Shown here: positions 15,460-61,657 of the stretch, in pieces
Numbering within the stretch: position 1 is the stretch's first letter
How the letters are laid out: each line of letters begins with the position of its first letter
From: Pholiota molesta
Taxonomy: Eukaryota; Basidiomycota; Agaricomycetes; Agaricales; Strophariaceae
NCBI GenBank assembly: GCA_014925825.1
Contig: JACGCK010000143.1
Location: 1-64,000 of the forward strand
Direction: 5' to 3'
Length of the DNA stretch: 64,000 bases
Notes under the pieces: generated by a model
Database searches by the model: none
What the model saw: the letters and a program-made list of their open reading frames with translations, nothing else
Told to the model about the DNA's origin: nothing
Translations under genes and position numbers: made by a program

Positions 15460-16570
15460 TTGAAACGAGGCGTAAATTGTTCTATTTTTGGAGCGTCGCA
15501 ACACTTTCTCCAGAGAGTACACCGAGGCTGCGAAGTCGCTTGAAAAGAGTTCAGAGGACATTCTGTGCACGCTTATCGACGACCTTGAACGACCAAGATG
15601 AGACGACGCATATCACAAAGACCAAAAAACCTTACAACGACAGAACGTGCCGGCCCTGCGCAACAACTGCATTTTTCATTTCCGTTCGAGCCGCGGATGC
15701 CCACAAATACTGCTCTGGCCATCCTGCACAACATGAGCATACCCAGAATCAACTTCACCTCTGTTCAACATGCATGATTGACTAGTGGGTGCGAACCTGG
15801 GAAGCGCGTTGACGACTGCCCAAGCTTCGCTATAAAAGCTTCAAGAATCAATACATCGCGCCAGCTGGGTCCACCTTCCAGAGTGCGTTCAATGTCTCCC
15901 GCGATACGCACTAGATAGAATTGGCGCGATTAGAATAGCCACACATAATGATAAAACAGAACATACCAGCTACAAGAAATATATAGACAGGACAATGACT
16001 ATGAATATGCATGCTTCACCTAAGTAGCTGAGCACTCACTGCTTACTACTATACAGTCCGTGATTGGTCGTCAATTGGCTCAAATCCATTGATGGCATCT
16101 ACAACAAACTCAAAAAAAACAATATTAATAGCGCGCCATTCGAGGCCAGGTACAGCGTGGCCTGGAGCTCTCAAAGAGTCTCAAAGCCGCTTCCAGAGAG
16201 AACCAGAGGGCTGTGAAAGACTTTCCAGACACAGGTCAGTAGCGGGCAAATGTAATCCGCATCAAGCGCTGTAGAAAATGGGATCGCGAAACCCGCGCTT
16301 CCAGCCAACAACCGCATGATAATAAACGCACATATATACATGCAAACCGCGAGCTCAGTATACCGCACACAGCGCCCACGCGACGGAATAAAAAAAGTGC
16401 TCGTTCGATTCGTTTCGGTGTCTATGCATGTATGCAGCAGAAAGGTTGGTATGAGAGGGACAACAGAGCGCGAAGCAGCATAGGGAAACGGGCGGCGAAT
16501 AGAAAGAGGGGGATAAGTGCGATAATAACATAAACAAGGAAATGGTTTGGCTTGCGCGCGTGGGGCAGGT
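15460..16570 (-). repeat. Duplicated 5' flank of IFI6-like copy 2 plus second flanking module
   Basis: 15460-15880 matches the upstream block of copy 1, and 15890-16570 matches 14270-14830. The arrangement gene-flank-module repeated along the minus strand indicates unequal exchange or segmental tandem duplication. No further gene is supported in this stretch. Confidence 0.6.
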
Positions 16571-16656: not shown

Positions 16657-17544
16657 CTACTTGGCTTGGACGAAGCCCTTTCCAGAGTATCCTTCCGATG
16701 AGATACCTGAGAGGTAAAATAGGAATGTTTTAGTAAACGTCAAAGAGGATAGGAGAAAGAGTGGACGCGGAGTTGGCTACACGACACGCCCAAGCACACG
16801 GACTTGTCGCGTAGCAAAGATAGGAAACCTGGCTCGAAAAGAGAACAGCACGTACCAGTGATAGGATTCAACTTCATCTCCTTGGCACGCTCGTTCGAGG
16901 CCTCCTGCCATTCCTTGTTGATGGTCCTGGGCGGCGTTTGTCCTATGCGTAGTTACCGACCATCAGCACCCCTCCAGACATCCAGCAGCAACAGAACAAC
17001 ATACCGCGAGACTGGATGGCCAAGAAAACGAGACCGGAGATACCGACAAGCGCAAGGGTGGAGAGGAAGATCTTGAGGTTGTCGCCGGGTTGGCTCGTGG
17101 GGGTCCTGGGACCATGGGGGCCGAACGCCACGTAGTACGCTGCACAAAGGAAAAGAAGCACCCTGCATCAGCAACACGGCGCACACCCGACAGCACGCGC
17201 CACCACGCCACAGGGAGGCCACCACGTCTCCCCCAGTACGGAGCAGCAGCAGGCCACTCAAAACCAACACACCACTCACCGGCCTTTTTCTCGTCTAGCG
17301 ACAGCGTCTTCCAGTCCTTCTGCTGCACGAGCTCTAGCTGCTCGTGCACGGAGGCCTTCTCGTCGTTGGTCATGCGCGCCCACTGCGCCTCGATGTTGGA
17401 GAGCGGGATCGGGGCGACGCGGGAGGACGTCGCGGTGGACGAGCTGGCGGCGGCGTCGACGTGGTTCGCGGTGGCGGTCGTCAGGCAGCGACGCTGCGCG
17501 GCGGACTTGAGGGCCGATGAGCGCGCCAGGCGGAGGGCTTGCAT
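16657..17544 (-). CDS. COX5: Cytochrome c oxidase subunit IV (yeast Cox5 / animal COX4 family), mitochondrial
   Basis: Four exons, 17280-17544, 17005-17139, 16856-16942 and 16657-16706, all joined in phase 1; 178 residues. The N terminus (MQALRLARSSALKSAAQRR) is rich in Arg, Ala and Ser and is a typical matrix presequence. The body has the family landmarks: IEAQWARMTNDEKASVHEQL, DWKTLSLDEKKAAYYVAFGP, one membrane helix (about residues 105-130, IFLSTLALVGISGLVFLAIQ), and INKEWQEASNERAKEMKLNP followed by a short glycine-containing tail. The subunit contacts Cox1 in complex IV and tunes its activity. Only one copy is present in the window. Confidence 0.93.
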
Positions 17545-17841
17545 TTTTAAGATTATTGAGGGAGAGGAGGAGGGGATATATGTACGACAGAAAAGAACCT
17601 CAAGTGCGTCAAAACACGGGTAAATCGGGAATCGTCCGGATCGAGCCGGGGCTCAGCCACACTAGTCTCGCGAGTCTCAGCCCAGCCAATTCTAGAGCAC
17701 GCAATGGTCACTTGTATTTCATTTTACAGTTGGGAACAGCAGAAAGAAAAAAGAGTCGAAGGGATGGTTCAAGATGTAAGCAGCATGTATCGTACACTAA
17801 ACAACGACAAAACTCCCTCCCCCCGTCACAAAAAAAAGCGC

Positions 17842-19965: not shown

Positions 19966-21170
19966 CTACTTGTCCGCCTTCTTAGCGCTCTCTGCTTTCC
20001 CAGAACTCGCCTCGCCACTCTCCTTCTTGACCTCCTCCTTCGCGTCCTTGTCCTTCTCCGACTTCTTCTCGCCCTCCTCCAGCTCCGCCCGCCCGATCGT
20101 CGCCTTGTTATCCACGAGCGCATGCAGGGCGATCACCGCACGCAGCAGGCTGCTCAGGTAGACGACGAGCATCTGGTCGTTCGTGCTCGACGCGAAGCTC
20201 TGCGTCGCCACGGGGTCCGACAGATCCGGCAGCAGGTTCAGCGCGTCTTGGAGGAGGTACACGATCTGGTGGTTGACGGGCATCGTGCCTGCGGCGACTT
20301 CGACGAGGTATTTTTGGATATCCGACAAGCGCGATTGCAGGCCGCGGAGCGAGGATAGTTGCTCGCTCACGCGCGTTGCCAGTGTCGTCGTCGTCGAGTC
20401 TTTGATATCGCGTAGGAGGTGCTCTACACCGATCTCCTCTGCCTCCTCCGCCTCGATGGCAGAAGGCACGTGTAGGAACGTTTTCCGCGTTTCTGTGCCA
20501 TCCTACTGTATGTCAGCTGAGAATTCCTGGGCGAGGTATTGCAACATACATCTTTGATTTCCTCCACTGCGAAATAAGAGTCCGTGGGCATCCCCACGAC
20601 CTGTGGCCGCACATCGACGATCACCATGACCGGCCGTGCAATAAATCGTTTGAAAAGGTCGTTGATCTCTTGATCTGAGGCTCGCAATTTTGGTCCAGTA
20701 TGATACCACCCAATCATCCTTTCCCTAGCTAAAGGATTTCGTATGAGCGTTGTGAAAGAAAGTGCCCGAAGTAAAACCTCACCATTAACCTTCTTGAACA
20801 TCTCGTACATGCCCTCAATGTAATTATGGTCCAAGAACCACGTCTTGCTGTCCTTCTCATCTTCCTCGAATGGGATACCAAAGGAATTGGCAACATTTAT
20901 TGTCTTTCCATTATCTTGTCCCAGAAGCACGCCGACGACTCGTTTCTGCGAACTGCGCGAGACAGAGCGGGCATGATGATCCGTCACCGATAGCAGAACC
21001 AAAGGGTGCACGACTGGAAGGAGGGCATTTAGATGTGGCTCAGATCAAGAAATATTACAGACGTACTGACAGTCGTGCTTGCTAGGGCGGTTAGCTAGAC
21101 CAACTTTATCAATGCACTGAATTAGCAAATGTAAAATGTATAGTACCTGCTCTGTTGTTGTTGCTACCAT
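19966..21170 (-). CDS. RPN8: 26S proteasome lid subunit Rpn8 (PSMD7), non-catalytic MPN protein
   Basis: Five exons, 21147-21170, 21067-21094, 20783-21013, 20550-20728 and 19966-20502; 332 residues. An MPN domain starts at [15 protein letters not shown] and continues through [29 protein letters not shown] and [13 protein letters not shown]. Where active Rpn11 has HxH of the JAMM metal site this protein has HTG, so it is the inactive partner that heterodimerises with Rpn11. [17 protein letters not shown] is the conserved end of the domain. The C-terminal half has helices of the lid bundle and then a highly charged Lys/Glu tail. Exon 2 (28 nt) uses the acceptor GGTCTAG; using the nearer CCCTAG would break the frame. 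Confidence 0.95.
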
Positions 21171-21911: not shown

Positions 21912-24630
21912 TTAAGCACAACGGTGGCCGTCCTCATCAGGAGTTGCGGCGGAATCTAACGGCGTGGTTGATGACTGGCCATTTGTCTGTCTTTTGGCCA
22001 TGGCAGTTTTCTTTCGTGTATTGCTCGCTCGCTCGAGCCTCTTCGCTTGTTCAGCAGCCAATCGGCCTGAATATTGAGGTAGCTTCTGTCTCATATCATT
22101 AGCGAAGACGTGGTCATACTGGACACAACGCATGCGAATGATGTCAATCGCCTTTTTTTTAATACAAAAGCGACCATTGTCAATCTCTACCAGAAAATAT
22201 GAAACAATGGAATTGACATACCTCTTCGCCTTTACAGAAAGCCGTGATAATATCGTCCCTATCAACTGGAGTACCCTCACGGCGTCTGATTCTCAACATC
22301 TCAGTCTCTATGAGGGATTTTTCCTCCTCGTCCTTTTCTTCATCGGTCATACCAACGACTGGAAGGATACCGGCCTTTCTTAAGGCAATCCGAGCGCGCA
22401 TGGCCACATATACATCAAATTTTTGCATGTCAGTAGTGATGTGGCCCATTGATTTTGCACCTTCCAATCGATAAGAAAATTATCGCCATGCCAGGACTAC
22501 AAGGCTACTCACTTGAAAAGGTTGAGAGCGAAACTGCTCTGGCGTTATCACGCCAACGAGCGTGAACTCGTAATCCCCAAGATACAGCCACAGAGCTGGT
22601 GATGTGTCCGATCTCTTGCAGAAGACTGACCAAGGAGGATTTTCCAATATTTCATGGCGCGAGGAATATATAAGCCCTGGCATCCCCGGCCTACTTGGCA
22701 TTGCGGGGTTTAAAGAAAGCGTCGGGAATAACAGCTGACGACGACGGGAGCGATCTGACGGATTTCGCTGTGCCGGAATATACTGCAGCCACGTTTGATT
22801 ACTGCCTCCGTAGGCGGCATGTAAAAATGCTCGAGAGACCTCGATATCGAGTGGCTGGGGACATATTGCGAGAGGCGATGATGACTGGAGATAGGGCTCA
22901 ACGACAGATGGTGAGAGGTTAAAGGCTTTTTGATCGGGCAGACTCCGATTCCGGACAAACTTCAAAACAGGTAGAACATCAGGACTAGAGTAACGCAACA
23001 AAGAGGCCTGAACAAACCGCAGAATTTGCCGTGGACCCCATCAAAGTTGAAGAAGATGCAAAGGCTTGACCTGGAAGTTGCCCAGAGGGTGATGCAGGCC
23101 TCGATTCTTGTACCCAACGCTCGACGGAGTGGTCTAAGATCAAGGATCAAGGAAATCCGCACGAAACTCAGAATCTATGTCGTTCTGCATGGAGTGGACA
23201 TACCTGTCGGGAGGATTCTGACCAAGCTGAAGGTGTAGGGGATTGATATGAGATATCCGACATATAACTCAAATCATCATCGCTTGATTCTCGAACGCTA
23301 GCACTTGGAGCATCGGTCTAACGTAGAAGAATGTGATCATGAATTACAAGCCTACGATGCCATGACAGGAATCCACCTACCTGTTGAGAAGAGATTGGGT
23401 CTTCATTTAATATTTGATCGACTTCGGAATTTTCAGTAACGGAGAGTCCTTGGGAGGTAGACACTTGAGGAGGGTCTGGATGACTCTCTGATTCGTTCCG
23501 AATGCTTTCTCTCTCGACATCCAACATCGTTGAAGGTTCCGGTACTCTATCGCTTGCTGCATGACATGTGAGATTGGCCTAGAGAAAGATCAACGACTCA
23601 GGATACCGATGAATGAAAGAAAAATGAAAGCGTAGACAAACACTAGAGTCGTTTTCCGAGGTCAAAGCCGAAGGGGATGGGGCATTTTGATTGGAGAGTT
23701 GAGAATCAGAGATAGGAGGAGAGGCCGATATTTGTACTGAGGTTGACAAGGGCATATCCTAAAATCAACGAACACGGTCATAAGCTGAAGTATAAGTGAC
23801 TGCGTGTATTCCACTACATCTTCCGAAGCACCTACATCTTCGGAAGGGATTGGGGGTTCACCTTCGTCGACTTCATCCCTCATAAACACGGGATTCTTCA
23901 GTTCGTAGCTTTGATCAACAGATGTTGTTTCCCCATATTTTCAATACCTCCTTCAAGCTCTAAAGCCGACGACGGCCCTGGTACCATGTCATCGCTCTCG
24001 TCCAAGGTCAGATCAATCTGGATGATTTTTGATTAGCCACCTATGATGAAGAGACAAATCGTCCACATACTGTGATAGCGCTGGATGTCTATTGAGTTGT
24101 TAATGCAATTGGATGCAGCAACTATACTGAAAACTCGCCTGAGATACCACAGGAGCTGGGTTCAGTTTTCGGCGCTTGACTCGATTGTTTTCTTCATCAC
24201 TGGCACATCGTTGACTCAGGGGCATTTCGAGCTTTACAGGAGATGCGAAAGTCTGACAGTAATGAGAAGTTAGATAGTGTAGACCAACGTCAACAGATAG
24301 ATATAAGCACTCACTTCTTCTGTTTTGTAAAGAACAGGTGCGTCGATAAGTTCAAGAGAGGGTGACCGACTCTGGTGTCTTTTAACGATGAGCCTTCGGT
24401 TCATGCTCTCCGCGACAACAGCTCGGCCGAGTAATACGCGCGTCTCTTTGAGCTCGTTCTGTGTGTCGGACAGCTGTCTCTTGTACTCTTCATTCGCGCG
24501 CCCTGCGCTGTATAGCCGCGCTTTTACTAGACAGTAAGATGGAAAAGTGTTTGATATCAGTTCCTTCTAGGAAACGATTGAAATATTGAAAGAGCTTACA
24601 TATCACGTTTTCAGCCTCCAAGGCGCGCAT
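21912..24630 (-). CDS. DUF6697-like coiled-coil protein of agaricomycetes
   Basis: The gene starts at ATG 24630 (MRALEAENVI), followed by an intron and a helical Glu/Lys/Arg-rich exon (LKARLYSAGRANEEYKRQLS). Several acidic, Ser-rich exons follow between 24300 and 23000 whose borders I did not fix. The C-terminal half (22950-21912) has the order expected for DUF6697: ALWLYLGDYEFTLVGVITPEQF, QNQWATSLL, MRARIALRKAGILP, DRDDIITAFCKGEE, then AIDIIRMRCVQYDHVFANDM and a basic tail. Between QNQWATSLLTC and KFDVYVAMRARIAL the frame must change by one base at a run of five T (22420-22424, plus strand), and no intron explains this. No molecular role is known. The family name is from memory of the motif pattern and should be treated as likely, not certain. 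Confidence 0.7.
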
Positions 24631-34081: not shown

Positions 34082-37000
34082 ATGGCAAGCCATCCAGCTT
34101 ACCCTCACCCAGGCCCCGGACCTTCTTCCTACTACCAACAGCCTCCACCTCACCCTCACGTCTACGGAACTCACAGTCCGGCACCACGACCAAACTACTA
34201 TCCCTATCCCGCACCACCACCGCCGCACATGAATTCACCCCAGCCAGGCCAATACCACCACCAACCAGGACCATCGCGAGGAAACCACCGCGGAGCGAAC
34301 CACCTCGGCGGGTCGTACAACTCAAGAGGAACGCACCATTATCACCACAACTATCAACAACCCCATCAGCAGCAGCCACACTTCGCCCACTCCCATGTCA
34401 ATCCTGCCCTTGGCGTACACACCCAGCACCACCCACATTCCCCACAACACATGTACTCGCCCCAGTCCGCAAAATACAACCAACCCTTTACACCATCTTA
34501 CCCATACCCTTCACCCACGGCACCCGTTTTTACCCCTTCATGGCAGCAGCAACCTATTTCGCCATTACCTAAACAGCTCTCCATGCCCCCTCCTCAAAAC
34601 GTGCCCCAATCTTTCTACGAACCGCCACCGGCGCCTCCGCCCGCAGAACGGGTTATTTCCACTCCATTAAGCCCTGCCGCGCCTCCAAAAGCGCCCGAAC
34701 CTACTGAAAATCCAGAAACCCCTGTAACTGACGAGAAGATTGAATCCGATGCTCCATCTCCATCGACCCCTCCGCCTGCAACCTCGTCCACTCCGGAACC
34801 CACATCATTACCTCAGACCTCATCTTACTCACATATGGGCACCATTTCGACGACAGATACCACATCTCCTGCCCCGTCGCGAAGTGCGTCACCCTCTCCA
34901 GGGAAGGCTGTCAACCCCATCGCAAAATGGGCCATCTGGTCTCGTCGGCCCCAAGATCCATCACACGCCCCAAGCATCATTATCTCTCCAAAAGCGCGCC
35001 CACCTCCCGATGTTGTGCAGCAAGCGCTCGATCTGAAAACGCCGCCGCCTTCTGCCCCTGCCTCGCCTGCGCCCGTGGTGTCCAAGTTGCCTCCTGCGAC
35101 GGAGGTGCGATTCATACAGGCGCGGCCGTCAGCGTCGTCCTCTGCGGCAGGAATATCCACGATATCGTTCCAATCCGCGGATGAAAGCGTTGCGGCCGCT
35201 TGGGCTTCTCAGACCAACTCTTCTGTACCTTCGTCATCTGTTACAGAGAATGCGGATACACCCACTGTTCCTGGCTCTCCTGCGTCCTCTCATACTTCCG
35301 TGTCCATCTCAGGCACTCTTACGAAAGAGCTGAAAAAGATTCCAACACAGGCTGCGGAGGCTGACGTGGCCGCCACTGTAATTGCAACCTCAACCTCAAC
35401 TGCTGTGCCTACTGCTATCTCTGAAGCAGAGTCATCGTCGACATTAACACCTGCATCTGTGTCCGCGGAAAAGGACCAAGCCACACCGGCAGAGCCAGCG
35501 CCTGCTGCTACCTCAACGTCCAGCGCTCCTGTCTCTTCTCCCTCCGTTCAGCAAACCGACATGCTCGCAGCGCCCCTCCTCGCGGCGCCCCCCCACGCCC
35601 GCCGCGTCCTCTGCCTCCGCCTACCCGCTCCCGTCGCCGCGCCGCCCAAAAAATCCTGGGCGTCCCTCCTTCGGCCCGCCGCGGCGTCGCCGACGTCGCC
35701 GCCGGGCCCGTCGCGCAACGCGCTCCCCACGTCCTCCGTCGTCGGCTTCTCCATCCCCGCGGCGGGCCCGCGCCCGCCGCGCCCGTGTCGCCGACCGTGA
35801 AGTCCGCGCTTGCCACGCTGCTGACGTCCGGGCCGGCGGCGGCGGCGGCGCTGAGGATCCGCCCGCGCGGGCTGGTGAATAGTGGGAATATGTGCTTTGC
35901 GAACGCGGTGCTGCAGGTGCTCGTGTACTGCCCGCCGTTCCACCGGCTGTTTGCGGAGCTGGGAAGGGTGCTTGTCGGCCCTGTGGTTGGGGGTGGCGGT
36001 GGTGCGGGTGTGGGTGCGAAGGAGGAGAGGGTGGGGGCGGTGGCGGCGCAGGGGAGTGCGACGCCGCTGGTGGACGCGACGATCGAGTTCCTGCGCGAGT
36101 TCGCGGAGGACCGGAAGAAGAGGGACAGGGCGCGGCTGGAGGTCGTCAGCCGGAACGGCGTCGGCGCCGGCGGGAGCGGGCGGGGGAAGGGCAAGGAGCG
36201 GGAGGTCAGGGGCGAGGCGGCGGCGGCGGAGGAGGAGGATGATTGGGATGGCGATTCCTTCCTGCCGACGTACATATACGACGCGATGAAGGAGAAGAAG
36301 CGGTTCGATAATATGCGGGTGCGTGCTTTTCCTCCTTTTTTCGTGTAACGTTTGTGCTGATACCGGTTTATGTGATTTAGGGCGGACATCAAGAGGATGC
36401 GGAGGAGTTCTTTGGGTTCTATCTGGACACCCTCGAGGAAGAGCTGCTCGCGATCCTGCACAGCGTGCACCCGCCGAAGGGCAAGGGGGGCGCGGCCGGC
36501 GGCGCCGTCGAGGAGACGGAGGAGGCCGCGCCGCCGGAGGAGGACGGCTGGCTCGAGGTCGGCCGGCGGAACAAGATGGTCGTGACGCGCACGGTATGTA
36601 CCCTTTTTCTTTTCTTCACCCCTGCATGCGAGAGTGGGTTTGCTGATGATGATGGTTGTCTGTGTGGATTGATAGGTGAAGGCGACGGAGAGCCCGATTA
36701 CGAGGATATTTGGCGGGAAGTTTAGGTCGACGCTGCGCGCGCCGGGCCAGAAGGACTCGGTCGTCGTGGAGGATTGGCGCTCGTTACGCCTGGACATCCA
36801 GGTTTGTCCAACTTGACTTATCCTCCATGTCAATCCATTTCTCATCATCATCATTGCTATGCATGTACAGCGAGACCAAATCCACACTATCCAGGACGCC
36901 CTGTCCTACATCTCCGACCCGCAGCCGGTGCAGGTGACGCAGGCCGCGCGGCCGGGCATTACCATCGAGGCGCACCAGCAGGTGCTCATCGAGGCGCTGC

Positions 37001-45238: not shown

Positions 45239-47121
45239 TTAGCTGTCTACGGCGGAAGATGCGATAAGTTTGGATCTGATAGGATCTGATAATAGTGTAG
45301 TAGGTAGGTGGAGGCTGGTTCGATTGCTTTCGGAGTCCATTAAAGTATCCACACGAATACTAAACTCCTGATCATATGGTTCGTAATACGACTCTCGCAG
45401 ATTTAGGATGAGTCGCGATCCAAAAATGGCGGATAGGATAACGGGAAAGAGGAGCGTTATATGCACTATGTCGTGCTAAATTAGAGGGGGAAAAAATGAC
45501 AGGTCTCGTCAATGAGATTCTAGTGAAAAAAGGACAGTATTTGCACATACCCTTAGTTTAGTTGCAGTCAGGAAAAAAACACTCAAGTTGAGAATGCCAA
45601 CTAAAGCAAAGCTATAAAAGACTATCAAGAAAAGTTATGTAGTGATAGAAAAATGCGCAACTCACATGATGGGGAAGATTATACTATCCCTGAGAAGAAT
45701 ATACAGCAAAGATGTTTCCCTATTGCTATTCCGATAATCCAAGAACATCCGGTGGTTTCCAACTGCGAGATAATACTTGATTCCGAGCGCCAATGCAAGA
45801 CCGCATATCAGGAGTTCAAATGAGACAATAGGAATCCAAACGACGAATTCCCATGATGTAATTTTCTCTTTTGCGCAGAAGCCAACAGGGGCCTCACCGT
45901 ATACATCTGGCACCAATCTATTTAGGACTCAGAGGGATTATTTACATCGACAAAAACTCACCTGCAGTGTTCACATTTGAGCCGTCAAGCCATCCCACCA
46001 ATTGGATAATCGGGACGGAGAGCAGTTCGGTCGCGAAGGCAGCGATGAGGATTCGCAAAATTTTCTGATCATGTGTGTACATGCTTGAAACACGATATAT
46101 CATGATGCCTGCGACAATATCAGAATTTAACGGACGAGAAATGATGTAAAGGGTGAATTTTACCATGCATTGCGAAGATCGTCACAGCTGCCAGAGGCCC
46201 ACTAATTTTGTTGAAAGCATCGCCTTAATCAATCGTGCCCAGCACTTTCATAAGCGAGTGTTAAGATATTAAAAGTGATTAAAAGATGGCTTACAACTAG
46301 AGGGTAGATAAAATAATTAAGCATATGCTTTCTTCAGAATGCTTATGTGCTTACCTGGCTCTCTTATGGTACACCAGAAACGATCGGTTAAAGAACGCGA
46401 TATCAGGAGACATCAAGGTATCACATCAAAATATAAATCTAACCTCTGTAGAGTCCCTCAGAAGATTATTTATGAAGACTGGATAGCGTTCTTAATTGGA
46501 TGGCGCGAGATGCAAAATAAGAGGCGCACATGAGGCCGTATAGCTATATGAATCTCTGGTAAACGTCCCAGGACGAGCGGTGCCACAAGTGAGAACATAC
46601 ATTTGCAAGCCAAGGCCAACATATCGGTTCTGATCGTTCGCAAAACGAGGTAGTGAATATTTTATCATATGCGCGGGAACCTCACGCTTACTATCAAGAA
46701 TAGACCTTGAGGAATTTTCCATTTTGGCCGGTTCTAAAGTCCAAATCAGCTACTGTGTAAATCTTGCGACGTCTTCTGAGGTACTTGCCCAAATGATCTC
46801 AATCTATGGAACAGAATAAATATTAGTCCCATCTATGCCAGTAATATGATAGAAAATTTCGAACCTCGACGTCAAGTGTAGTTACTATGGTGGTGGAGAT
46901 ATTCCATTCACCGATTTAGCATAGGCTTTACTCAACCAAGATCTAAGAACACGCACGATGATCGTAGATCATACATGTAGCGCCAGCGACTAATAGAAAT
47001 ATACATAAAATAAATTTGTTCAGCGTTGGTTAGCTGAATAATTGACTGAGACCAACTTACGCGCGAGATATGATAGAACAGTATCCCCAGGGAATAGCAC
47101 CTGATTAACTTGAGCGTCCAT
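45239..47121 (-). CDS. DUF6533-type seven-helix membrane protein, copy A
   Basis: The start is MDAQVNQVLFPGDTVLSYLA at 47121. The following short exons encode a first helix and the DUF6533 core (YDH..T.D.E.E..W, then a basic PKWQIPQFLF-type segment and NRYVGLGLQMY). Later exons carry RVSSMYTHDQKILRILIAAF, FCAKEKITSWEFVVWIPIVS, FELLICGLALALGIKYY and ILLRDSIIFP. The final exon has LSAIFGSRLILNLRESYYE and a polar tail ending AVDS. At least 10 small exons; not all borders were fixed. The family is large in agaricomycetes and resembles serpentine receptors; no ligand or function is known. Copies B and C lie downstream in the same orientation. Confidence 0.7.
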
Positions 47122-47966: not shown

Positions 47967-48484
47967 CTGCTTGATATCGCGTCTGGAGAGCTGATCAAGA
48001 GCTGATGTATAGGTCTGATGAGAGCTGATGCATGATGTGGCGCGAGATAGGTATTTGATGCGTACCAGCTAGTACCCGGTAGTACGACGGTTGCGCACTT
48101 ACCGCTGGACAGCAGGAAGCAGTGAAGTTGTGTGATGTGGAGTGCTAAAGTAAAACAAAATGCGAGGATCAATGAGAATCTACTTAGCAAACTAGGAAAG
48201 CATTGACTTTAACAGAGAAGACGCACCCATAGGTACGCTAGTCCGGATAAAAAGATTTTAGAAAAATTGGAAAACAATGGATATGCACATAAATGACCGA
48301 TAAATATATACATCAGTGTCCGAAAGCATGCTAAATGATTGCAAAGAGGTTGCAAAAAGAGCAATGCAAATGTGGCCTCGGCTAAAACCTACGATTTTGA
48401 AATCGTTAACTCCCCTTGTATGTACAAGTACCTCTCCTCTGAATAAACTTTCGATGAGGGACTGATTCTAGGAGCCTGAGCTGT
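47967..48484. repeat. Duplicated SCD6/DUF6533 intergenic segment
   Basis: The right part (48,270-48,480) matches the spacer between SCD6 and DUF6533 copy A, placing the orphan SCD6 exon and copy B in the same relative order as the original pair. Confidence 0.6.
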
Positions 48485-50348
48485 CTACGGCTCTAAGGTG
48501 CGACGTGTGGCAAGGTGTAGATCTGGTATTCCTGTGGGAAGGTCGAGGCTGTTGTGGTTGTCTTCTGGATCCATTGAGGTGTCCACACGAATGCTAAACT
48601 CCTGATCGTACGATTCGTAATATGACTCTCGCAAATTCAGGATGAGGCGCGATCCAAAAATGACCGATGCGACAACAGGAAGGATGAAACTTGCGTGTGC
48701 TACGGCATGCTTCATTAAAACGTCAATAAGAATTAACTCAGCAAAAGAGAGGAAAGCATTCGAACGTACTCTCAAGCCCGTTGTGTTTGACCAAGCAACA
48801 AGCAAGTTGAAAATACAGAACAAAGAGAAGCTATATTTGGGGAAAATATCAGGCGAGGCTCGATGTCGATTAGACGGACGGTGGGACTCACAAAAAGGGA
48901 AATATTATACTATCCCTGAGGAGTATATACAGCAGAGGTGTTTTCCTGTTACAATTCCGATAACCTGAGAATATGCGGTGGCTTCCAACTTCACGATAGT
49001 ACTTGATACCGAGCGCCAATGCAAGACCGCATATCAGGGACTCAAAAAGCACCACCGGAATCCAGATGGCGAATACCCACGATGTATACTTCTCTTTTGC
49101 ACAGAACTCAACAGGGGTCTGAATGGATATACCTGGAACATCAAGCTATTTAGAATCGCTCATAGCAAACATATTATGATAAGCTCACCTGAATCAGCCG
49201 TATTCGAACCATCAATCCTTGACACCAACTGCATGATTATGAGGCAGAGAAGTTCAGTCGCATAGGCCGTCAGGAGGATCTTCAGAATTTTCCGATCATG
49301 TGCGTACATGCTTGAAACGCGGTACACCATGATTCCTGACGATATCAGAATTTAAATGATGAAAAATAGTGTAAAATCTCATCCTCATACCGTGCATTGT
49401 GAAAAATGTCACAGCTGCTAGGGACCCGAGGACAAGATTGAAAGTGTCGCCTAAATTAAGATACCCCAGGATTTCTTGTAAGCAAGTGTCTAAAGGAGTT
49501 TCAAAGATGGCGTAGGCGTACAACTAAAGGAGTGCAGGAGTGCACAAATTATATCAGCGTATACTTGCCTCATGATGCTTATTTACTTACCTATATCTCT
49601 GATAGTACGCCAGAAGCGATCAATATAAAAAGGGAGACCTAGACATCACGTCAAAATGTAAATATTTACCTGTGGAGAATGTCCTAGCAAATGTTTTATA
49701 AAGACTGAAGGGTTTCATTGAATTGGATGACGAAGGATATAAAAAGGCGCCACGTACACGAAGCGGTATAACTATATGAATTTCTCTGGTGAACGTCCCA
49801 GGACAAGCGGTTCTGTAAGTGAGAACGTACATTTGCAAGACAAGGCCAACATATCGGTTCTAACCAGTCATAGATTCAGATAATGGATACTTCATTCTGC
49901 GTAAATTCAAAGCTTACGAGAAAGAATAGAAATTGAGGAATTTGCCATTTCGGCCGGTTCTAGAGTTCCAATCGCCTACTAGGTAAGTACATCGAGATCT
50001 TCTAAACAGTGGTACTTACCCAAACGACCTCGATCTATGAAACCGAGAAAATATGAGTGATTTCATACCCATTAATATGACGGAAAGTAACGAACCTCGA
50101 TATCGAGCGTGGTTACTATGATGGTCAACATATCGCGTTCGCCAATTTAGCATAGGCTCCACTCATTCAAAGTTAAGAAGACTCACAGTGGTCGTAGATC
50201 ATACATGTGGCTCCTGCGACTGATAGAGGTATATAAAAATGAAATTGTCAGGCTGGCTGGCTGGGTAGCTGACTGAGGCCAACTTACGTGCGAGGTATGA
50301 TAGCGCTGTATCCGCAGGAAGCACTATCTGATTGACTTGAGTGTCCAT
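48485..50348 (-). CDS. DUF6533-type seven-helix membrane protein, copy B
   Basis: The start lies at 50348 (MDTQVNQ). The body is parallel to copies A and C, with QMYVLTYRTACPGTFTRE, a THDRKILKILLTAYATEL-like segment, then AEFCAKEKYTSWVFAIWIPV-like and SLICGLALALGIKY segments. The last exons are FCIFNLLVAWSNTTGLR, and SFILPVVASVIFGSRLILNL followed by RESYYESYDQEFSIRVDTSM; the stop is at 48485. Closely similar to copy C over both coding and intron sequence, less so to copy A. Small exons were not all fixed, so I cannot exclude a broken splice site. Confidence 0.65.
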
Positions 50349-52548
50349 TTCCGAACTGGAGCCTCGATTGGGTCGTTAGAACTGGTGGGCTGCCAGTAAG
50401 AAAGAGAGATGACTATGAGAAGGCAGTAGCGGTTCAACAGAGATGTAGGCACCAGACCTCGGAAATTCAATGCTAATTCAATGCAACCCTAGGAACGCCG
50501 CTCGAAACCGGCTACTAAATAGCAGCACTTAGTTGACTTCGTATGTATGTAAAGCTGTCAAGCACTGGCGCCGGTGCCAATGCTGACTAATTTCAAGTAT
50601 CCTGTGTCTAGCTGCTGACTCTAGCACCGCTCGTTCAACTGGAGGCTGGTGGATGTAAACGATCTTTTGGGCATATAAGTTCCGAACAAAAATGGTTTGC
50701 TGATTATTGTCGTCAAGGTAGAGCTAACGATGAATTCAAGTTTGCCGACATAGCTTTAAGTTTGCCTTATGGCTCATGACAACACCGCTCCAAATCGCAA
50801 CCTCTTGTTTGTGCTCTCCTCCTTCAGCTGCATGGCGTCGTGAGTAAGCATAGGCACGGTCTCGGTCTTGACTGCTGCCTCCGTGCATTCTGCGGACGTT
50901 CGAGATTCCACTCTGCAGGATATTCGGGCGGTACGCGCTCTTGCGGGCGAAGACTGCAGTTGACAAGCAGTAGACGAGGTTAACAGCCTTGGCGTCCGAC
51001 CTCTTGAGTCAGTGATAGGGCATCACTTCATAATTATCATACCAGTGCGCCTCGTCTGTGTTTAGTCGTAAGAATTGATGGAGATGAAACCGCTCGCGGC
51101 ATGCCTGAATTGCAAGAAAGAGGTAAATATCCTTCAAATCTCGACCTAACCAAGGCTATATAGTCTATACTCACCGGGGAGAAGGTTCGTTGCTTGTAGC
51201 TGACAGAGTACCCAGTACTCTTCGCCGATAATTGTGCGTGAATTTTTCCTCCAGATGATCGAAATGGGTCGATACCGTTAACAAAGAGGAAGCGGACTCA
51301 ATGATATTGGCGCGACATTGGCGACAAGGAAGTAGCCCTTAAGTACCCTCAATGGGCAGTACCTGAGTACAGCTTTAAGATCGTGCCCTCCTAGTGCGAT
51401 CTCTGAATGCGCTGCGAGCGCCGAGAAGTCTTATGATGTTGGCAATGAGGAAGCCTCTGAGATTCTCTTCTCTTCGCCTATCTGCAACCTGTTCGGTGTT
51501 CGACCAGGAGGCCGACTGACGGTGCTCGTAAAGTGTTTCGCTAGCTCGCAACCTAGGTCTATTAACGGTGAAAAATCTTATCGTTGGTGTAGGTCGTAGG
51601 TGGCAGAATCGCGTTTTGTAACAAGGCGGGCACCAGTTTGTAAAAGCCCAGCACCTTGATATGGGAGACTAATTGTCGTTATCAAAGGACGAATCTGGGG
51701 TAAAAGCAGATGGCCATCCAGCAATAAGGCGACGCGCTCCTGCTCTCGGCGATCGTAGGAGGGGCGATCGTGGTGAAAAAATCGTCAGACATGCAGTATG
51801 TCGTTTGTATATGCAGAGTATCTTGCTTGGAAAGATCGCAGTCGGTGGGAAGGACATGCATAGGAAGGACGTGAGCGATTGCCTGGAGCACGATGATGGT
51901 AGGATGTCGGAGGCTTTAAATTCGCGGCAAGCAATACCGTGACTGACGACGCGAGACTCGATGCGGAATTTGCCGATGCCCCATTGTACAATGTACAGAA
52001 GTAACTTGGAGATATCCCTCGCAGAAATACAAAAATCTGCACGAGGTTCACAAAATAATGGATATGCACGTAAATAAAAGGTAAGTATATACAGCTGTTT
52101 TTGAAGGCAATGAATCGAAAGGCGTGGCGTGGCTACCGAAGAGACATTGTTAGTTCCAGGTTCACAGGATATATTGCGGTGACAGTTCCTTCACGGTTTC
52201 CCGAGATACAGTGATCAGCCAAGCCTCACAGGATAGAAAGGTAATTCTGCTAGCGTCGAAAAATCGCTTGTTTGCGTTGGCCGCCCGTCACAGGGCTGGA
52301 ATCCGGGAGGTCTTTGCAGCAGTTCCGCAGTCAGAATGATTGTTCAGACATTCTTCGTATAATCACTTGGGGCATGTTTTATTGTTTCGCCTGCGAATTC
52401 ACCCTCAAATTCAAAAGTTTTGGCTCTGCAGTAAATTCTACGCATAGCAATACACATTAAGAATTGCAGACATGATTCCTCATACCTCCAAAATCTAACC
52501 AAAAGCCTTAGTCTAGATCATCAGGCAGCGGGCGCCTCCATAAGAGCG
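50349..52548. other. 2.2-kb region with no supported gene, partly duplicated
   Basis: A minus-strand frame at 50736-50966 (with RRMHGGSSQDRDRAYAYSRR) could be a 3' exon of a lost gene; a CAG acceptor precedes it, but no partner exons were found. 51,645-51,710 recurs at 55,740-55,805 (gcaccttgatatgg.agactaattgtc). 52,290-52,510 recurs at 57,145-57,360. Nothing else recognised. Confidence 0.5.
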
Positions 52549-53052
52549 TCAATCACTGTTGTCCGTGCTAATTAAATTTTTCATTAACGGAGGCTCAGTG
52601 GTATGAATAAAGTGGCGACAAACCCTATATTTTCTCCAGTCTGCGCGAGCAGTGAGTTCAGGAGCTTCATCCTCAAACCCACGCCTGTTTGGTGAGAAAG
52701 CATCGGAGACCCTACATATATGCGAAGACACGGTGAGTGACTGCTTGCCGCTGATGATGACAAAGTGCTTACTGGTTGTAAGTGTCCGCAATTCTGGCGG
52801 CACCTCTTGCACCTTTTATGATATGACGGCTGTGGGGGCGGGGTGCATGGCGTATAAGTTTGACAGCACCGCCTAGCCTGATGGGTTCGCGTTCTTGACT
52901 GAGTTGAGTAGGCATAAAGATCAGTGTGTCGAGTGAAGAATAGAGCAGCGGACATACAGATTGACAGTGTCAGCATTGACGGGGTATGCAAGCGAAGAGG
53001 TGATGACAGTAGCGAGAAGAAAGATAGAGGCAGAGAGGTTGATTTGAACCAT
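52549..53052 (-). CDS. Small secreted protein with conserved basic core, copy 1
   Basis: Three exons, 52958-53052, 52773-52898 and 52549-52711, in consistent phase; 127 residues. The N terminus MVQINLSASIFLLATVITSS followed by LAYPV is a clear signal peptide, with cleavage likely after LA. Exon 2 (126 nt) encodes a basic segment that starts QEREPIRLGGAVKLIRHAPR and ends ARGAARIADTYNQ; it differs from copy 2 at only three positions. Exon 3 (VSDAFSPNRRGFEDEAPELT, then YRVCRHFIHTTEPP) is much more variable, apart from FEDEA and RVCRHFI. There is an Arg-Arg pair where a Kex2-like protease could cut. One cysteine, so not a disulphide-rich effector. No known family recognised; a processed peptide or effector is an inference only. 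Confidence 0.75.
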
Positions 53053-53614
53053 GATGATGATATTTAGCGCGAAGGTCGTTAACGTTAACTTGACTGTGAA
53101 AGAGCTTTAGAGGAGTGCGATCAACGCTAGAGTTATCGGGGTGAGACCAGCTAAAGAAACTAGGAAGTGAAATAGAACCTTTATATATGTTCTCATGATC
53201 CACCCAAATAGTGCAGAATAATTGCATGTCAATGTGGTTCTATTTGAAGACGAAACATATTGATTGACAGGCTCCTGTAACCGTTCAGAAATAAAAATTG
53301 AAAGATCAACACTCGGATATACGGCAACCGTGTAGTGAATCAGTGATAGGTGGAGTTAAAATGACCACCGTTCCCTGCGATTCAACTGCGATTCAGAACT
53401 TTCAGTTATTGATAACAGGCTTGAATATTTGAACTCACATTCAAATGCGTCGTGCAATTGAGAGGCGCTTCCTATGTTATTACATAGGAGCAATGGATAA
53501 TTACTTCCTTTTTGTGTATACGCATTTTGAATTGATGTAGATTGTCCAGTATATTTTTAGACGAACTTTCTGGTTCAAAGCGGTGTAAGCAACAAAGGTT
53601 CGTGTTAGAGCTGT
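53053..53614. repeat. Duplicated intergenic segment, empty site of the inverted-repeat element
   Basis: 53,270-53,530 matches 55,825-56,017 plus 56,607-56,700 and, more weakly, 58,170-58,500. The run gaggcgcttcctatgttat (53,461-53,480) continues directly into tacatagga, with no inserted element, unlike the copy at 56,000. Confidence 0.7.
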
Positions 53615-55462
53615 CTACGGCTCTAAGGTAGGACGTGTGGCAAGGTGTAGATCTGATATGGCTGTGGGAAGGTCGAGGCTGATGCGGTTGTCTTCTGGAT
53701 CCATTGAGGTGACCACACGAATGCTAAACTCCTGATCGTACGACTCGTAGTATGACTCTCGCAAATTCAGGATGAGGCGTGATCCAAAAATTACCGATGA
53801 GACAACAGGAAGAATGAAACTTGCATGTGCTACAACGTGCTTCATTAGGACGTCAATAACGATTAACGCAGCAAAAGAGAGGAAACCATTTGGACATACT
53901 TTCAACCCCGTTGTGTTTAGCCAAGCAACAAGCAAGTTAAAAATACAAAAGAAAGAGAAGCTATATTTGTGAAGAATATCAGGCAAGGTGTCGATTAGAC
54001 GGACGGCGGGACTCACATAAAGGGAAATATTATACTATCCCTGAGTAGTATATACAGCAGAGGTTTTTTCCTGTTACTATTCCGATAACCTGAGAATATG
54101 CGGTGGCTTCCAACTTCACGGTAGTACTTGATTCCGAGCGCCAATGCAAGACCACATATCAGGGATTCAAAAAGCACCACGGGAATCCAGAGGACGAATA
54201 CCCATGATGTATACTTCTCTTTTGCGCAGAACTCAACAGGGGTCTGAATGAATATATCTGGAACATCAAGCTATTTAGAATCACTCAGAGCGAACATATC
54301 ATGATAAGCTCACCTGAATCAGCCGTATCTGAACCATAAATCCTTGCCACCAACTGCATAATTATGAGGCAGATCAATTCAGTCGCATAGGCAGTAACGA
54401 GGATCCTCAGAATTTTCTGATCATGTGTGTACATGCTTGAAACGCGGTACACCATGATTCCTGACAATATCAGGATTTAAATGATGAGAAACAGTGTAAA
54501 ACCTCATCCTCATACCATGCACTGCGAAAAAGGTCACAGCTGCTAGAGAACCGATGACAAGATTGAAAGTGTCGCCTAAATCAACATAGCCCAAGATCTC
54601 TTGTAAGCAAGTATCGAAGGAGTTTCAAACACGGCGTAGGCGTACAACTAAAGGAGTGCACAAATTATATCAGCGTATATTCTCCTCGGAATGCTTATTT
54701 ACTTACGTATATCTCTGATAGTACACCAGAAGTGATCAATATAGAGGGGGAGACCTAGACATCACGTCAAAATGTAAATATCTACCTGTGGAGAATGCCC
54801 CAGCAAATGTTCTATGAAGACTGAAGGGTTTTATTAAAATGAATGACACAGGACATAAAAAGGGACCACGTACATGAAGCGGTATAACTATATGAATCTC
54901 TTTGGTGAATGTCCCAGGACAAGCGGTTCTGTAAGCGAGAACGTACATTTGCAAGATAAGGCCAACATATCGGTTCTAACCATTCGTAAATTCAGATAAT
55001 GGATATTTCATTCTGCGTAAATTCAAAGCTTACGAGAAAGAACAGAAATTGAGGAATTTGCCATTTCGGCCGGTTCTAGAGTTTCATCAGCTACTAGGTA
55101 AGTACATTGAGATCTTCTAGACAAGGGTACTTACCCAAACGACCTCAATCTATGAGACCGAAGAAATATGAGTGAAATTCATACAATAGAGTGACGGAAG
55201 GTAACGAACCTCGATATCGAGCGTGGTCACTATGATGGTCAAGATATCGCGTTCGCCAATTTAGCATAGGTTCCACTCATTCAAAGTTAAGAAGACTCAC
55301 AGTGGTCGTAGATCATACATGTGGCTCCTGCGACTGATAGAGGTATATAAAAATGAAATTGTCAGGCTGGCTGGCTGGGTAGCTGACTGAGGCTAACTCA
55401 CGTGCGAGATATGATAGAGCTGTATCCGCCGGAAGTACTATCTGATTAACTTGAGTGTCCAT
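53615..55462 (-). CDS. DUF6533-type seven-helix membrane protein, copy C
   Basis: The first five exons fit exactly: 55402-55462, 55301-55333, 55210-55229, 55135-55149 and 55034-55075. They read MDTQVNQIVLPADTALSYLA, then LAGATCMIYDHLTTLDIEIE, VVW, and NRPKWQIPQFLFFL, the DUF6533 domain. Then come NRYVGLILQMY, VYRVSSMYTHDQKILRILVT, FCAKEKYTSWVFVLWIPVVL, FESLICGLALALGIKYY, LRDSIIFP, FFCIFNLLVAWLNTTGLK and SSVIFGSRLILNLRESYYES; the stop is at 53615. Several helices alternate with short loops; the C-terminal tail after the last helix is about 45 residues, polar and acidic. Exon borders between 54,950 and 54,000 were not all fixed. Nearly the same as copy B in both coding and intron sequence, so a recent duplicate. 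Confidence 0.7.
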
Positions 55463-56018
55463 TTCCGAACTGAAGCCTCGACTGGGTCATAAGGACTAGT
55501 TAACAGTGGCGGAGGGCTGCCAGTAAGGAAGAAAGAAGACTATGAGAAGGCAGCAGCGGTTCAGCAGAGAGATATAGGCACCAACCCTCGGAAATTCAAT
55601 GCGAGTCGGCGACCTTAGGAACGCCACTCGAAACCGGCTACTAAATAGCAGCCACTTACGTTGACTTCGGTATGTAATGGCATCGCGTTTGTCACCCATT
55701 GCGACAGTGCATTCAGATGGTGCGCCGTGCGCGAAGCAGTGTTTAAAAGCGCAGCACCTTGATATGGAAGACTAATTGTCATTGTCAAAGGACGAATTTG
55801 GGGTAAGGCGAAACATCTTGGCTCCTGTAACCGTTCAGACTAAAAGTTGATAGAATCAACACTCGGATATACGGCAACCGTGTAGTGAGTCAGTGATAAG
55901 TGGAGTAATAATGACCACCTTTCCCTGCGATTCAGACTTTCAGTTATTGATAAAAGACTTGAATATTTGAACTCACATTCAAATGCGTCGTTCAAATGAG
56001 AGGCGCTTCCTATGTTAT
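55463..56018. repeat. Duplicated intergenic segment left of the inverted-repeat element
   Basis: Contains copies of sequences from 50,349-50,560 (5' flank of copy B), 51,645-51,710 and 53,270-53,480. No gene. Confidence 0.6.
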
Positions 56019-56606
56019 TGGGTGACTTTCCATAACGCTAACTTGAATTATTTAGAAGTTGAATTGTTTAGCGACGTCAGTCGGAGTTCCAATGGTGAAA
56101 AGTCGAATTTCCATAACGCCCATAAACGCACATTTGGAGATTCGAAAGGGCGAGCTCGTCAAAAAGTCCTTTCCAAGGCTCTCTGAAGCATCCCATCCTA
56201 TTTTTGGGGATGCAAAAGTGTGTTGTCCATAGTAATATATATGACGATGCTATTCCTCAATTTTTCCTCAATAACGCGAGCCAGCAGGCAAAGCTGTTGC
56301 ATTTGCGAATGCAATGAGCGGGAGGACGCCGAGCAAGGGTCGGCATTGATGCCGGTGTGCCGGAAAGGGACATCTGGCGAGAAAGGAAAAATAGGGTCCT
56401 GATTGGCAACCGCTGACAGTTTTTGACAACTCAAGATTTGGAAGAGGGGGGGTAGAGGCCTCTTCTAAATACGAGGTTTAGACCTGTCAACTTGAAAGCC
56501 AGTTGACAGCCCGGAGGTTGTACCGTCAACGGCACCTCGGCCAAGGACCCTTGTTGCCATGTATTTAGAGATAGATATTCAAGTTAGAGTTATGGAAAGT
56601 CACCCA
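56019..56606. mobile_element. 588-bp non-autonomous element with 30-bp terminal inverted repeats (MITE-like)
   Basis: The left end TGGGTGACTTTCCATAACGC (56,019 onward) and right end GTTATGGAAAGTCACCCA (to 56,606) are inverted repeats over 30 bp with one mismatch. The flanks read TA-T and T-TA, which fits a TA target duplication of the Tc1/mariner kind. The interior has no transposase frame. Sister copies of the same flank at about 53,480 and 58,415 lack it, so the insertion came after the module duplication or was lost in the other copies. The interior includes a T-rich and a GC-rich part and several short internal inverted repeats. Confidence 0.85.
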
Positions 56607-56823
56607 TTAGGAAGTAGACCTTCAGCAACGAATGACTACTTCCTATCGGTGCATATAACACGCATCTTGAATTGATGTTGCCTAATATTGTCCACTATAT
56701 TTTTAGATGAACTTCCTGGTTCAAAGTGGTGTAAGCAACAAAGTTTAGTGAGACAAGATCGCAGCACAGGAAATCGAAGAATGCTCAGCGCTCAGACCCA
56801 AGCGGTCGCCAGACAACGAACAG

Positions 56824-57123
56824 TGTTGTAACGCCTAGTCGTCGCCTGAGGCTTTGTTCTTTTTTGCTTCCCTTTGGCCTTCCTCGTGGCCTCTTGGCCA
56901 AATTCTCTGCCGTGCCAGACTTGTAGGGCCTGTACCTTTTTGGGCTGTTTAGTTGGAATGAAGGCATGCCTAACATTATTAGGCTCACCTTGTCATGATC
57001 TTTATTTATGTTTCGATAACGACTCAAAATCAATGTATGCCTTGGGAGATATAACGCATGCGCACGACGCACTTCTCGAAGACAATCCAGCAGCCGTATG
57101 TGCTCGCTTTCCAGTCTATTCAT
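56824..57123 (-). pseudogene. Truncated copy of the AT-hook gene
   Basis: The minus strand shows NRLESEHIRLLDCLREVRRA (compare LESERTRLLNCLREVRR in the intact gene), YRNINKDHDKV (compare YRKINEDRDKV), then a direct jump to SGTAENLAKRPRGRPKGSKK (compare SAGTAESLAKRPRGRPKGSK). The exons for the middle coiled coil and the whole 5' half, including the Gln-rich arm, are missing. The junction is a deletion of about 400 bp relative to 58,700-59,180. Confidence 0.8.
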
Positions 57124-57418
57124 CGTAATTCATGATTAGATTGCGCGTAGAATCCGAGAGGTCTTTGCAGCAATTCAATAAAAGTCAATCAGATTGATCT
57201 TTCGGACATTCTTTATGAAATCAGGACACGTTTTATTGTCCGACTGTGAAGTCACCCTCAAAATCCAGAGTCTTGGTTCTGCAATAAATTATATTCATAG
57301 CGATATACAATAACAATTGCGGACATGATTTTTCATACCTCCAAAACATAGCCAAAAGCTCGAGTCTAGATCGCCAGGCAGTGAGCGCTTCCAAAGAGCG
57401 TTAATGTTGTTTTGCGTG

Positions 57419-57896
57419 CTAAACAATTTTGAAATTCAACAGAGACCCAGCGGTACAGATAAAGTGGCGACAAACCCTAACTCCGCCCCATGTCCACCGC
57501 CGATCCAGTGCTTCATCCTCGAAGTCACGCCTGCCTTGAGAGAAAGTATTGGAGACCCTATATGTATGCGAAGACACGGTGAGCGACTGCTCGCCGCTGA
57601 TAATGACAGAATGCTTACTGGTTGTAAGTGTCCGCAATTCTGGCGGCACCTCTTGCACCTTTTATGATATGACGGCTGTGGGGGCGGGGTGCATGGCGTA
57701 TAAGGTTGATAGCGCCGCCTAGCCTAACGGGTTCACGTTCTTGACTGGGAAGAGTAGGCATAAACGTTAGTGGGCCGATGGAAGAGATAGAGCAGGAAAC
57801 ATACAGCTCGACAGCATCAATATTGACGGGATATGCAAGTGAAGAGGTGATGGCAGTAGCGAGAAGAATGATAGAGGCGAGGTTGATTTGGACCAT
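57419..57896 (-). CDS. Small secreted protein with conserved basic core, copy 2
   Basis: Three exons, 57805-57896, 57619-57744 and 57419-57557; 118 residues. Signal peptide MVQINLASIILLATAITSSL-AYPV. Exon 2 has the same 126-nt length as copy 1 and encodes QEREPVRLGGAINLIRHAPR to ARGAARIADTYNQ, with three substitutions in 42 residues. Exon 3 keeps VSNTFSQGRRDFEDEA and RVCRHFI but has a different, shorter end (CTAGSLLNFKIV). An excess of change in exon 3 against near-identity in exon 2 suggests that the basic core is what matters. Flanking sequence is also shared with copy 1. Function unknown. Confidence 0.75.
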
Positions 57897-58649
57897 GATG
57901 ATGATATCTGGCGGAAAGGTCGTTTGATTGAATGCGAAAGAGCTTTAGAGGATTGCGATCAACGCTAAAGTTATTGGGATGAGACCAGCTGAAGAAACTA
58001 AGAAGTGAAGCAGACCCTTTATATATGCTGTGGACCGGCGTCATGATCCACCCAAATAGTACAGCAGCATGCATAGAAAGATGCTTGGGGCCGCCAATCT
58101 TTCAGTCGTATATGCTGTGTTGAAAGATTGATCATTGCATGTGTCGGTCTGATCAGTCGAAAGCTGTCGACAGGCTTCTGTAACAGATCAGAGATGAGGT
58201 TGATAAGATCAACACTTGGAGTACGTCGCTACGCGGCAACTGTGTAGAGAGTCAATGACGAGGGTAGTGAGAATGTCCACCATCTGTTCCTATAATCCAT
58301 GTAGCAGCGTTGTAGTCATTCCTGCGGAAAGTGGGATTTAGACCTCTGCAAGTGATAAGAAGCTTCACATGATTGAACTCACATTCGATTGCGTCGTTCA
58401 ATTGCGGGAAGCTGCGTATGTGATGTAGACCTTTAGCAATGAAATGGTTACTTCCTATCGGTGTAAACACATTTTGGACTGATGTAAATTGTCCAGTACA
58501 ACTTTAGACACGAACTTTCTGATTCAAAGAATTGTAAGCAAAACATACAACATAGTTTAGTATTACACGGATCGCAGCACAAGAAAGCGAAGAAGATGAA
58601 ACTCAGACCCAAGCGGTCGCCAGACAACGAACAAACAGTGTTGTAATGC
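57897..58649. repeat. Duplicated 5' flank of secreted-protein copy 2
   Basis: Resembles 53,053-53,560 and 55,825-56,017/56,607-56,750. It includes a second empty site for the inverted-repeat element near 58,410 (gtatgtgatgtagacctttagcaa). The last part is the 3' UTR of the AT-hook gene. Confidence 0.55.
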
Positions 58650-59863
58650 CTAGTCGTCGCCTGAGGCTTTGTTCTTATTTTTGCTTCCCTTCGGCCTTCC
58701 TCGCGGCCTCTTGGCCAAACTCTCTGCCGTGCCAGCGCTTGTAGGCACAGTGCGTTTTTGGCCCGTTGTACTTGTGTTCCCAGATCCGCTTCGAGATGGA
58801 CCTGCGACTGACGCTGATTGGCTTTCGTTACCACTTATGCGACGTTCGGTGAGGTATCTAGTGACAGATTAGATCAAGGTGAAAGGAAACCATCAAACAC
58901 GACTGACTGTGATGTCTTTTCGTCCAACGTACTCTGGAGACTCGGTAAAGGAGGTTGCCCAAGTTCTTGCCGAAGCCGATCGACATCTGCCTTTGCAACC
59001 GCATAGTCGTTTTCTGTGAGCTGTGCGATCTTTGCTTGCGTTTCTCGACACCTGTAACTGGGGGTAAGCGTCCTGATAACAACAAGAAAATATGAAACTG
59101 ACTCTTTCTCCAATGACGATTCCATTATGTCTACCTGCCGACGATTAGATGGAATGAAGGCATGCCTAACATCGCTAGGCTCACCTTGTCACGATCTTCG
59201 TTTATCTTCCGATATGTCTTAGAACCAATATGCCTGGTGAAAATATAGAAGACGACGCACCTCTCGAAGACAATTCAGCAGCCGTGTACGCTCGCTTTCT
59301 AGTCTACCAATCGAAATCCATGATTAGATTGCGTGGTGTGAAAATAGGGAGGGCATACTTGTGTTTCTGTTCCCGAAGATCTTGAATAGCCTTTCCCTTC
59401 TGCTCAAGCGAGGCATGTGCCGATAAGATATGTGCAGTATGCAGCTGCAGCGTTAGCGCATGCTTTCTGAAAGACACATAAATAGGATCGTAAATGCCAG
59501 TATATGCGAAGGGGACGGCGATATGATAAGAATGGACTCGGGGACGCACTTCAATTCGGCTGTCTTTGCAAGATGAACCAAGTCTTTCGTCCAATCCCCT
59601 TTAGCGACCAATGGTGTGCTGGTCGACCCGCTTGCCTGGGCTGACGTCCCTGGCTGCACACCATGTTGTTGTTGTAGTTGCTGCTGGTGCTGGTGCTGTA
59701 CTAGCTGAGGCGCGTGTTCGGGCTGCTTTTGCTGCACTACTGGCTGGCGCTGGGTATCCTTCGGAGCGATATGGGTGACAGGAATCTGTTGTTGGAGATG
59801 TGGAGGGTTGTAATGAACGTATTGCGTTTGTTGTACGTGGTGATGTTGAATATGTTGCGACAT
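58650..59863 (-). CDS. Gln-rich coiled-coil protein with one AT-hook
   Basis: Seven exons, 59550-59863, 59359-59466, 59261-59303, 59185-59217, 59103-59134, 58908-59051 and 58650-58857; 293 residues, with all phases and the total fitting. Residues 1-75 are rich in Gln and His (QHIQHHHVQQTQYVHYN, HQHQQQLQQQH). Residues about 105-225 form a helix/coiled coil split over several small exons (LQLHTAHILSAHASLEQKGK, LESERTRLLNCLREVRR, ECRETQAKIAQLTENDYAVA). The C terminus is Ser-rich and ends with the AT-hook KRPRGRPKGSKNKNK, which binds the minor groove of AT-rich DNA. A nuclear, chromatin- or transcription-linked role is inferred. An upstream in-frame ATG at 59905 would add 14 residues. Confidence 0.8.
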
Positions 59864-61357: not shown

Positions 61358-61460
61358 ATTGGACTTCTGTTGTCACCTGGCTGTAAAGCATGGTCCCACC
61401 CGGTCGAAATTAGTAACATGAACAAACAACCCGATTTAGCAACATGTCGGTTGATGATGT

Positions 61461-61657
61461 TGGGTACTCGTTTGAAAGTCGCCCCCGAACAAACATGTGC
61501 AAAGCGTTCGTAGGGGGCGAGTTCAAAAGTTGCCCCCGAACAAATAAGTACAACGTGAACAGGCTGGGTACTCGTTCGAAAGTCGCCCCAAAACAAACAT
61601 GTGCAAATCGTTCGTAGGGAGCGAGTTCAAAAGTTGCCCCCCGAACAAACAAGTACA
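61461..61657. repeat. Two-copy tandem repeat, period about 104 bp
   Basis: Copies start at 61,461 and 61,565 with TGGGTACTCG. Each has two half units around GTCGCCCC..AACAAACA and GTTGCCCCC.GAACAAA, so four similar pieces of about 50 bp occur. It lies 100 bp upstream of the COX16 start. No coding sense. Confidence 0.8.

Follow-up and report, generated by a model that had tools for sequence, protein, structure and literature searches.

What keeps the middle of two neighbouring genes nearly identical while the rest of each gene changes? The question is raised by copies A and B, a pair of genes for small, probably secreted proteins in a 64,000-nucleotide stretch of Pholiota molesta DNA (the window; positions 1 to 64,000 of contig JACGCK010000143.1, here C50). 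On balance, we read them as tandem paralogues of an orphan gene that is lineage-restricted, encodes a small secreted protein, was co-duplicated with a gene for a DUF6533 membrane protein and is probably in partly concerted evolution. Self-comparison of the window reveals the tandem duplication as two pairs of blocks, 48478–50547 against 53608–55676 (89.6% identical) and 52299–53216 against 57150–58064 (80.3% identical), the first carrying the DUF6533 gene and the second the small gene.

Both genes are real, and deposited proteins match them. The spliced translation of copy B is identical to BJ912DRAFT_1066073 and that of copy A is contained in BJ912DRAFT_995344, the deposited protein having two extra residues before the ATG. 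An initial annotation, made from the sequence alone, had placed two paralogues here. The pair stands, and the deposited Pholiota molesta proteins imply four exons rather than three (Table 1), adding a third intron and a very short exon 4. The exon 3 boundary first drawn runs into intron 3, and the cysteine once assigned to exon 3 of copy A comes from that intron and is absent after splicing. An end of the protein at an in-frame TAA inside GTAAG was rejected, the deposited proteins reading on past that point. The 126-nucleotide (nt) exon 2 of the initial annotation is confirmed. The introns of these genes are 56–61 nt long. Between A and B the four exons differ in length by 3, 0, 6 and 3 nt (all multiples of three) and introns 1 and 3 of the C50 copies by 1 nt each. 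Splice donors and acceptors are present in all four genomic copies, two on C50 and two on contig C623, which looks like the other haplotype of the window contig. A search of the 65.6-Mb assembly (625 contigs) with the DNA of exon 2 hit only copies A and B and the corresponding loci on C623, four places in all, and the identical block was therefore rejected as a dispersed repeat.

Possible conversion and constraint in exon 2

Exon 2 is the most conserved part of the gene, with 120 of 126 nt identical and, as the initial annotation had counted, three of 42 residues changed (these and the following identities are from the alignment of the two C50 copies, gap columns excluded). Identity is 81/92 in exon 1, 60/77 in exon 3 and 12/15 in exon 4; 46/59, 54/61 and 43/56 in introns 1, 2 and 3; and 158/180 upstream and 156/189 downstream. 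Introns and flanks are less conserved than exon 2, and the equal conservation that would have meant only recent duplication is not seen. The picture of an evenly frozen 42-residue core needs correction: all six differences in exon 2 (three synonymous, three nonsynonymous) fall within the first 14 codons and none in the last 28. A 93-nt run of identity results (Table 1); its end lies 7 nt beyond the splice donor and does not coincide with a protease site.

The strong divergence claimed for the sequence after exon 2 is confirmed. At the end of exon 3 (about 52624–52665 in A, 57476–57511 in B) the difference between the copies is, by eye, far above that of the flanks; replacement and diversifying change are candidate readings of this tail. 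In none of the 88 nt of exon 3 does copy A of C50 differ from copy A of C623.

The length of the 93-nt run was reached in 0 of 5000 shuffles of the differing sites (median longest run 29 nt, 99th percentile 50 nt), a test that uses all sites, so that protein constraint can contribute. Among the 680 silent sites, 121 of them different between A and B, the longest run has 35 sites and spans the 93-nt stretch. Silent changes in the last 28 codons number 0 of ~21 (unscanned p = 0.016), and this in each of the six pairwise comparisons of the four genomic copies; only two changes occur there among the four, both altering an amino acid and neither within the window pair. A second identical run, of 122 nt, lies in the co-duplicated DUF6533 gene (Table 1; p = 0.0012 by shuffle test of the C50 paralogues), and its intron has diverged in DUF6533 copy 1. 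The DUF6533 block has six haplotype-sharing sites, at which the C50 paralogues agree and differ from the agreeing C623 paralogues; three of them are within the 122-nt run, all intronic (p = 0.004). This mostly intronic run suggests gene conversion in the array. We infer that gene conversion made at least part of the identical 3′ two-thirds of exon 2, and that constraint on the protein adds to the effect; conversion is probably a contributor to the exon 2 identity, and selection on the protein is possible.

Several results weigh against our main reading. Taken alone, the silent-site run is matched or exceeded in 10.4% of 20000 shuffles (scanned p = 0.10). Nonsynonymous sites of exon 2 have changed less often (3/94) than silent sites (121/680; Fisher p = 7e-5). 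The haplotype-sharing sites of the DUF6533 block are not in excess of the opposite cross pattern (six against five of 2023 columns), and the p value of 0.004 is generous because cross sites by definition cannot fall in a C50-identical run. The small gene has three haplotype-sharing sites in 1079 columns, none inside the 93-nt run, so conversion of exon 2, if any, would predate the split of the haplotypes. The AlphaFold prediction of the protein is also poor (pLDDT, the predicted local distance difference test, 54.8).

The deficit in exon 2 speaks for the proposal of the initial annotation, in which exon 2 is a bioactive basic peptide under purifying selection and the rest of the protein a freely drifting carrier, and which we regard as a possible explanation, to be held tentatively. 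The deficit is found in the last 28 codons also (0/63; p = 2e-5) and is not found in exon 1 (7/67; p = 0.17), whereas exons 3 and 4, in which the alignment of the tail is uncertain, exceed the silent rate (22/75; p = 0.02). However, silent sites of the 28 codons are as frozen as the protein, and both changes found in these codons among the four copies are nonsynonymous. The synonymous divergence (dS) of exon 2 is low too (0.101, with a nonsynonymous divergence, dN, of 0.032), although its silent sites do not change significantly less often than those elsewhere (p = 0.24), and the comparison of nonsynonymous change in exon 2 with that in exon 1 gives p = 0.09. No dibasic pair borders the core in A or B; each protein has two, at residues 83–84 and 100–101 in copy A and 82–83 and 92–93 in copy B, all beyond the core. 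For a released peptide, a processing site next to the core is missing.

An identity that takes in silent sites and seven intron bases would also suit a block kept as nucleic acid, be it RNA structure, splicing or a regulatory element over exon 2 and its donor. We judge this quite improbable: there is no Rfam match at E 0.1 within 51500–58800, the block folds as RNA no better than usual (z-score −1.29), the genome search with exon 2 DNA hit nothing beyond the four known places, and on C623 two changes within the block and an altered base in the donor are tolerated.

The encoded protein and its relatives

The N-terminus is hydrophobic in both copies and, by eye, signal-peptide-like (MVQIN..SSLA start), which would fit the shared signal peptide of the initial annotation; the predicted secretion is based on it. 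The mature chains after SSLA/SSFA would have 85 and 84 amino acids (aa) and an isoelectric point of 10.2–10.7; they are basic, as had been proposed, and where one or no cysteines had been noted, all four mature chains have none, and so lack the conserved cysteines of a hydrophobin or a disulphide-rich effector. Within the core, the seven best 18-residue windows mark an amphipathic cationic stretch at residues 50–73, with hydrophobic moments of 0.65–0.71 (p 0.002–0.009 each, uncorrected for 68 windows). The repeated unit of a Kex2-processed repeat protein was not seen by eye, no repeat search having been run on the protein.

The deposited four-exon proteins gave a sole Pfam match at chance level (E 0.15, below the cut-off) and none in NCBIfam, and PDB sequences contain no match to the small protein; an earlier Pfam scan of the two-exon and three-exon forms was likewise without a useful match, and the initial protein-database query was the 74-aa two-exon form. 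Protein-database searches returned only the A and B proteins and one open reading frame (ORF) of a copy-B-like locus; such searches depend on shared words of five residues and would miss distant relatives. The ORF, P0003, was put forward by a profile search as a distant homologue and was rejected, as it is in another frame, reads through intron 2 and belongs to the copy-B-like locus. Its contig (source jgi) is no longer than 2873 bases, and in that frame the ORF and copy B are 83% identical; a profile of the frame found nothing further in the protein database. The 15 residues it shares at the end of exon 2 fix the in-frame third positions and are too few to tell conversion from constraint. Judged by sequence, and within the reach of word-based searches, the pair is an orphan with no recognised family, in agreement with the initial annotation. 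The A and B proteins are not named in those parts of the literature on the topic that were available.

Fungal small secreted proteins (SSPs) are described, in the available part of one article, as shorter than 300 aa and mostly orphan (PMC7105643). At 105 and 107 aa, A and B are within this size and resemble the orphan-gene SSPs of that text in being short, with a signal-peptide-like start and without a Pfam domain or known relatives; they differ in forming a tandem array together with a DUF6533 gene and in the block that is identical between the copies. We take them for an ordinary lineage-specific SSP pair, probably with some concerted evolution. With the cationic linear cysteine-free antimicrobial peptides they appear to share a basic character, the absence of cysteine and a cationic amphipathic stretch, but no sequence relative of A and B was found in the searches above. 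About 85 aa is long for that class of peptide. Cleavage after SSLA/SSFA would remove the signal peptide and set free a basic chain of about 85 aa that has no cysteine; its cationic amphipathic stretch (about residues 51–73) may bind anionic cell walls or membranes, either of competitors or of the fungus's own hyphae. Such action of a cationic protein at cell surfaces is our best guess at function, and a doubtful one.

The DUF6533 neighbours and other features of the window

Three DUF6533 genes stand in the window, of which the Pfam PF20151 scan covered copies 1 and 3. Related genes are found on C113 (several), C59, C322 and C618, with weaker matches on C2 and C246. A PF20151 scan of the genome gave at least 85 matches; the DUF6533 copies of the window are not among the matches listed, probably because the domain is split over several exons.

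The small gene and its neighbour were duplicated together, as would suit a secreted ligand and its receptor, a reading in which the small protein would be the ligand of the DUF6533 protein. Snowball (SNB1), a DUF6533 protein, is a predicted seven-helix plasma-membrane protein, for which its authors, in the part of their article available, leave transporter, channel or receptor open (PMC10949477). We find a ligand–receptor pair very unlikely: the idea comes from co-duplication only, and neighbours are expected to co-duplicate. In tblastn, the small protein matches the fetched surroundings of the DUF6533 genes on C113, C59, C322 and C618 with E = 0.61 at best (C2 and C246 stood outside this check), the matches below E 0.01 in fetched stretches are the C623 copies only, and next to DUF6533 copy 1 in the window nothing matches the small gene. 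An elaboration, in which a Pholiota-specific basic protein acts on the DUF6533 protein, the core being fixed for binding and the hypervariable tail giving copy-specific specificity, deserves even less credence. The likeness of the locus to the DUF6533 family, for example SNB1, consists in the PF20151 match of the neighbour gene; the secreted protein itself is not a member.

Immediately downstream of the small gene, the flank (52363–52519) is 70–72% similar to C113:392400–392564 and C59:91578–91740. These places are about 2.3 kb from a DUF6533 exon, and no small gene was found there; a lost neighbour and a shared element are candidate readings.

A candidate insertion resembling a miniature inverted-repeat transposable element lies at 56016–56609 (inverted arms of 33 nt with 94% complementarity, separated by 528 nt), and the matching place beside copy A (about 53481–53489) appears empty. 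An ORF is partially duplicated upstream of copy B (56611–57145 and 58422–59333, pieces 79–80% identical); its KRPRGRPKGSK stretch is AT-hook-like. Two 86-nt direct repeats, 90% identical and starting 104 nt apart, occupy 61452–61641, and a further local duplication is seen at 13389–16561 (pieces 69–78% identical). Five of ten ORFs scanned with Pfam had matches above the cut-off.

Table 1. Genes, identical runs and Pfam-matching ORFs of the window.
Feature	Position	Strand	Remarks
Copy A, BJ912DRAFT_995344 (partial)	CDS (coding sequence) 53052-52553; exons 53052-52958, 52898-52773, 52711-52624, 52567-52553	minus	107 aa
Copy B, BJ912DRAFT_1066073	CDS 57896-57401; exons 57896-57805, 57744-57619, 57557-57476, 57418-57401	minus	105 aa
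93-nt run identical in A and B	52766..52858	minus	86 nt of exon 2 (last 28 codons + 2 nt) and 7 nt of intron 2
122-nt run identical to 55272-55393	50158..50279	minus	Candidate gene-conversion tract in DUF6533 gene; 89 nt intronic (own splicing)
DUF6533 gene copy 1	45247..47121 approx.	minus	Older, 70-71% identical; PF20151 E = 1.2e-13, hand-spliced exons
DUF6533 gene copy 2	48485..50348 approx.	minus	Co-duplicated with copy A; block identity to 53608-55676; bounds from sequence
DUF6533 gene copy 3	53615..55462 approx.	minus	Co-duplicated with copy B; PF20151 E = 7.4e-15, hand-spliced N-terminal exons
ORF	1105-2040		HSF DNA-binding
ORF	4647-5879		NPHP3_N
ORF	20424-21044		JAB
ORF	22480-23040		DUF6697
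ORF	35425-36348		UCH
ORF	16963-17652		COX4 match just below Pfam cut-off

Meaning of the conserved core

The locus calls for caution, as a core that is conserved between tandem copies can mimic selection on a peptide, and homogenisation of the DNA may explain part of what is seen here. Silent sites together with a second haplotype are a means of telling selection from homogenisation. If constraint on the protein is true, the locus would encode a cysteine-free cationic secreted protein, covered by none of the family models used here, beside a DUF6533 gene.

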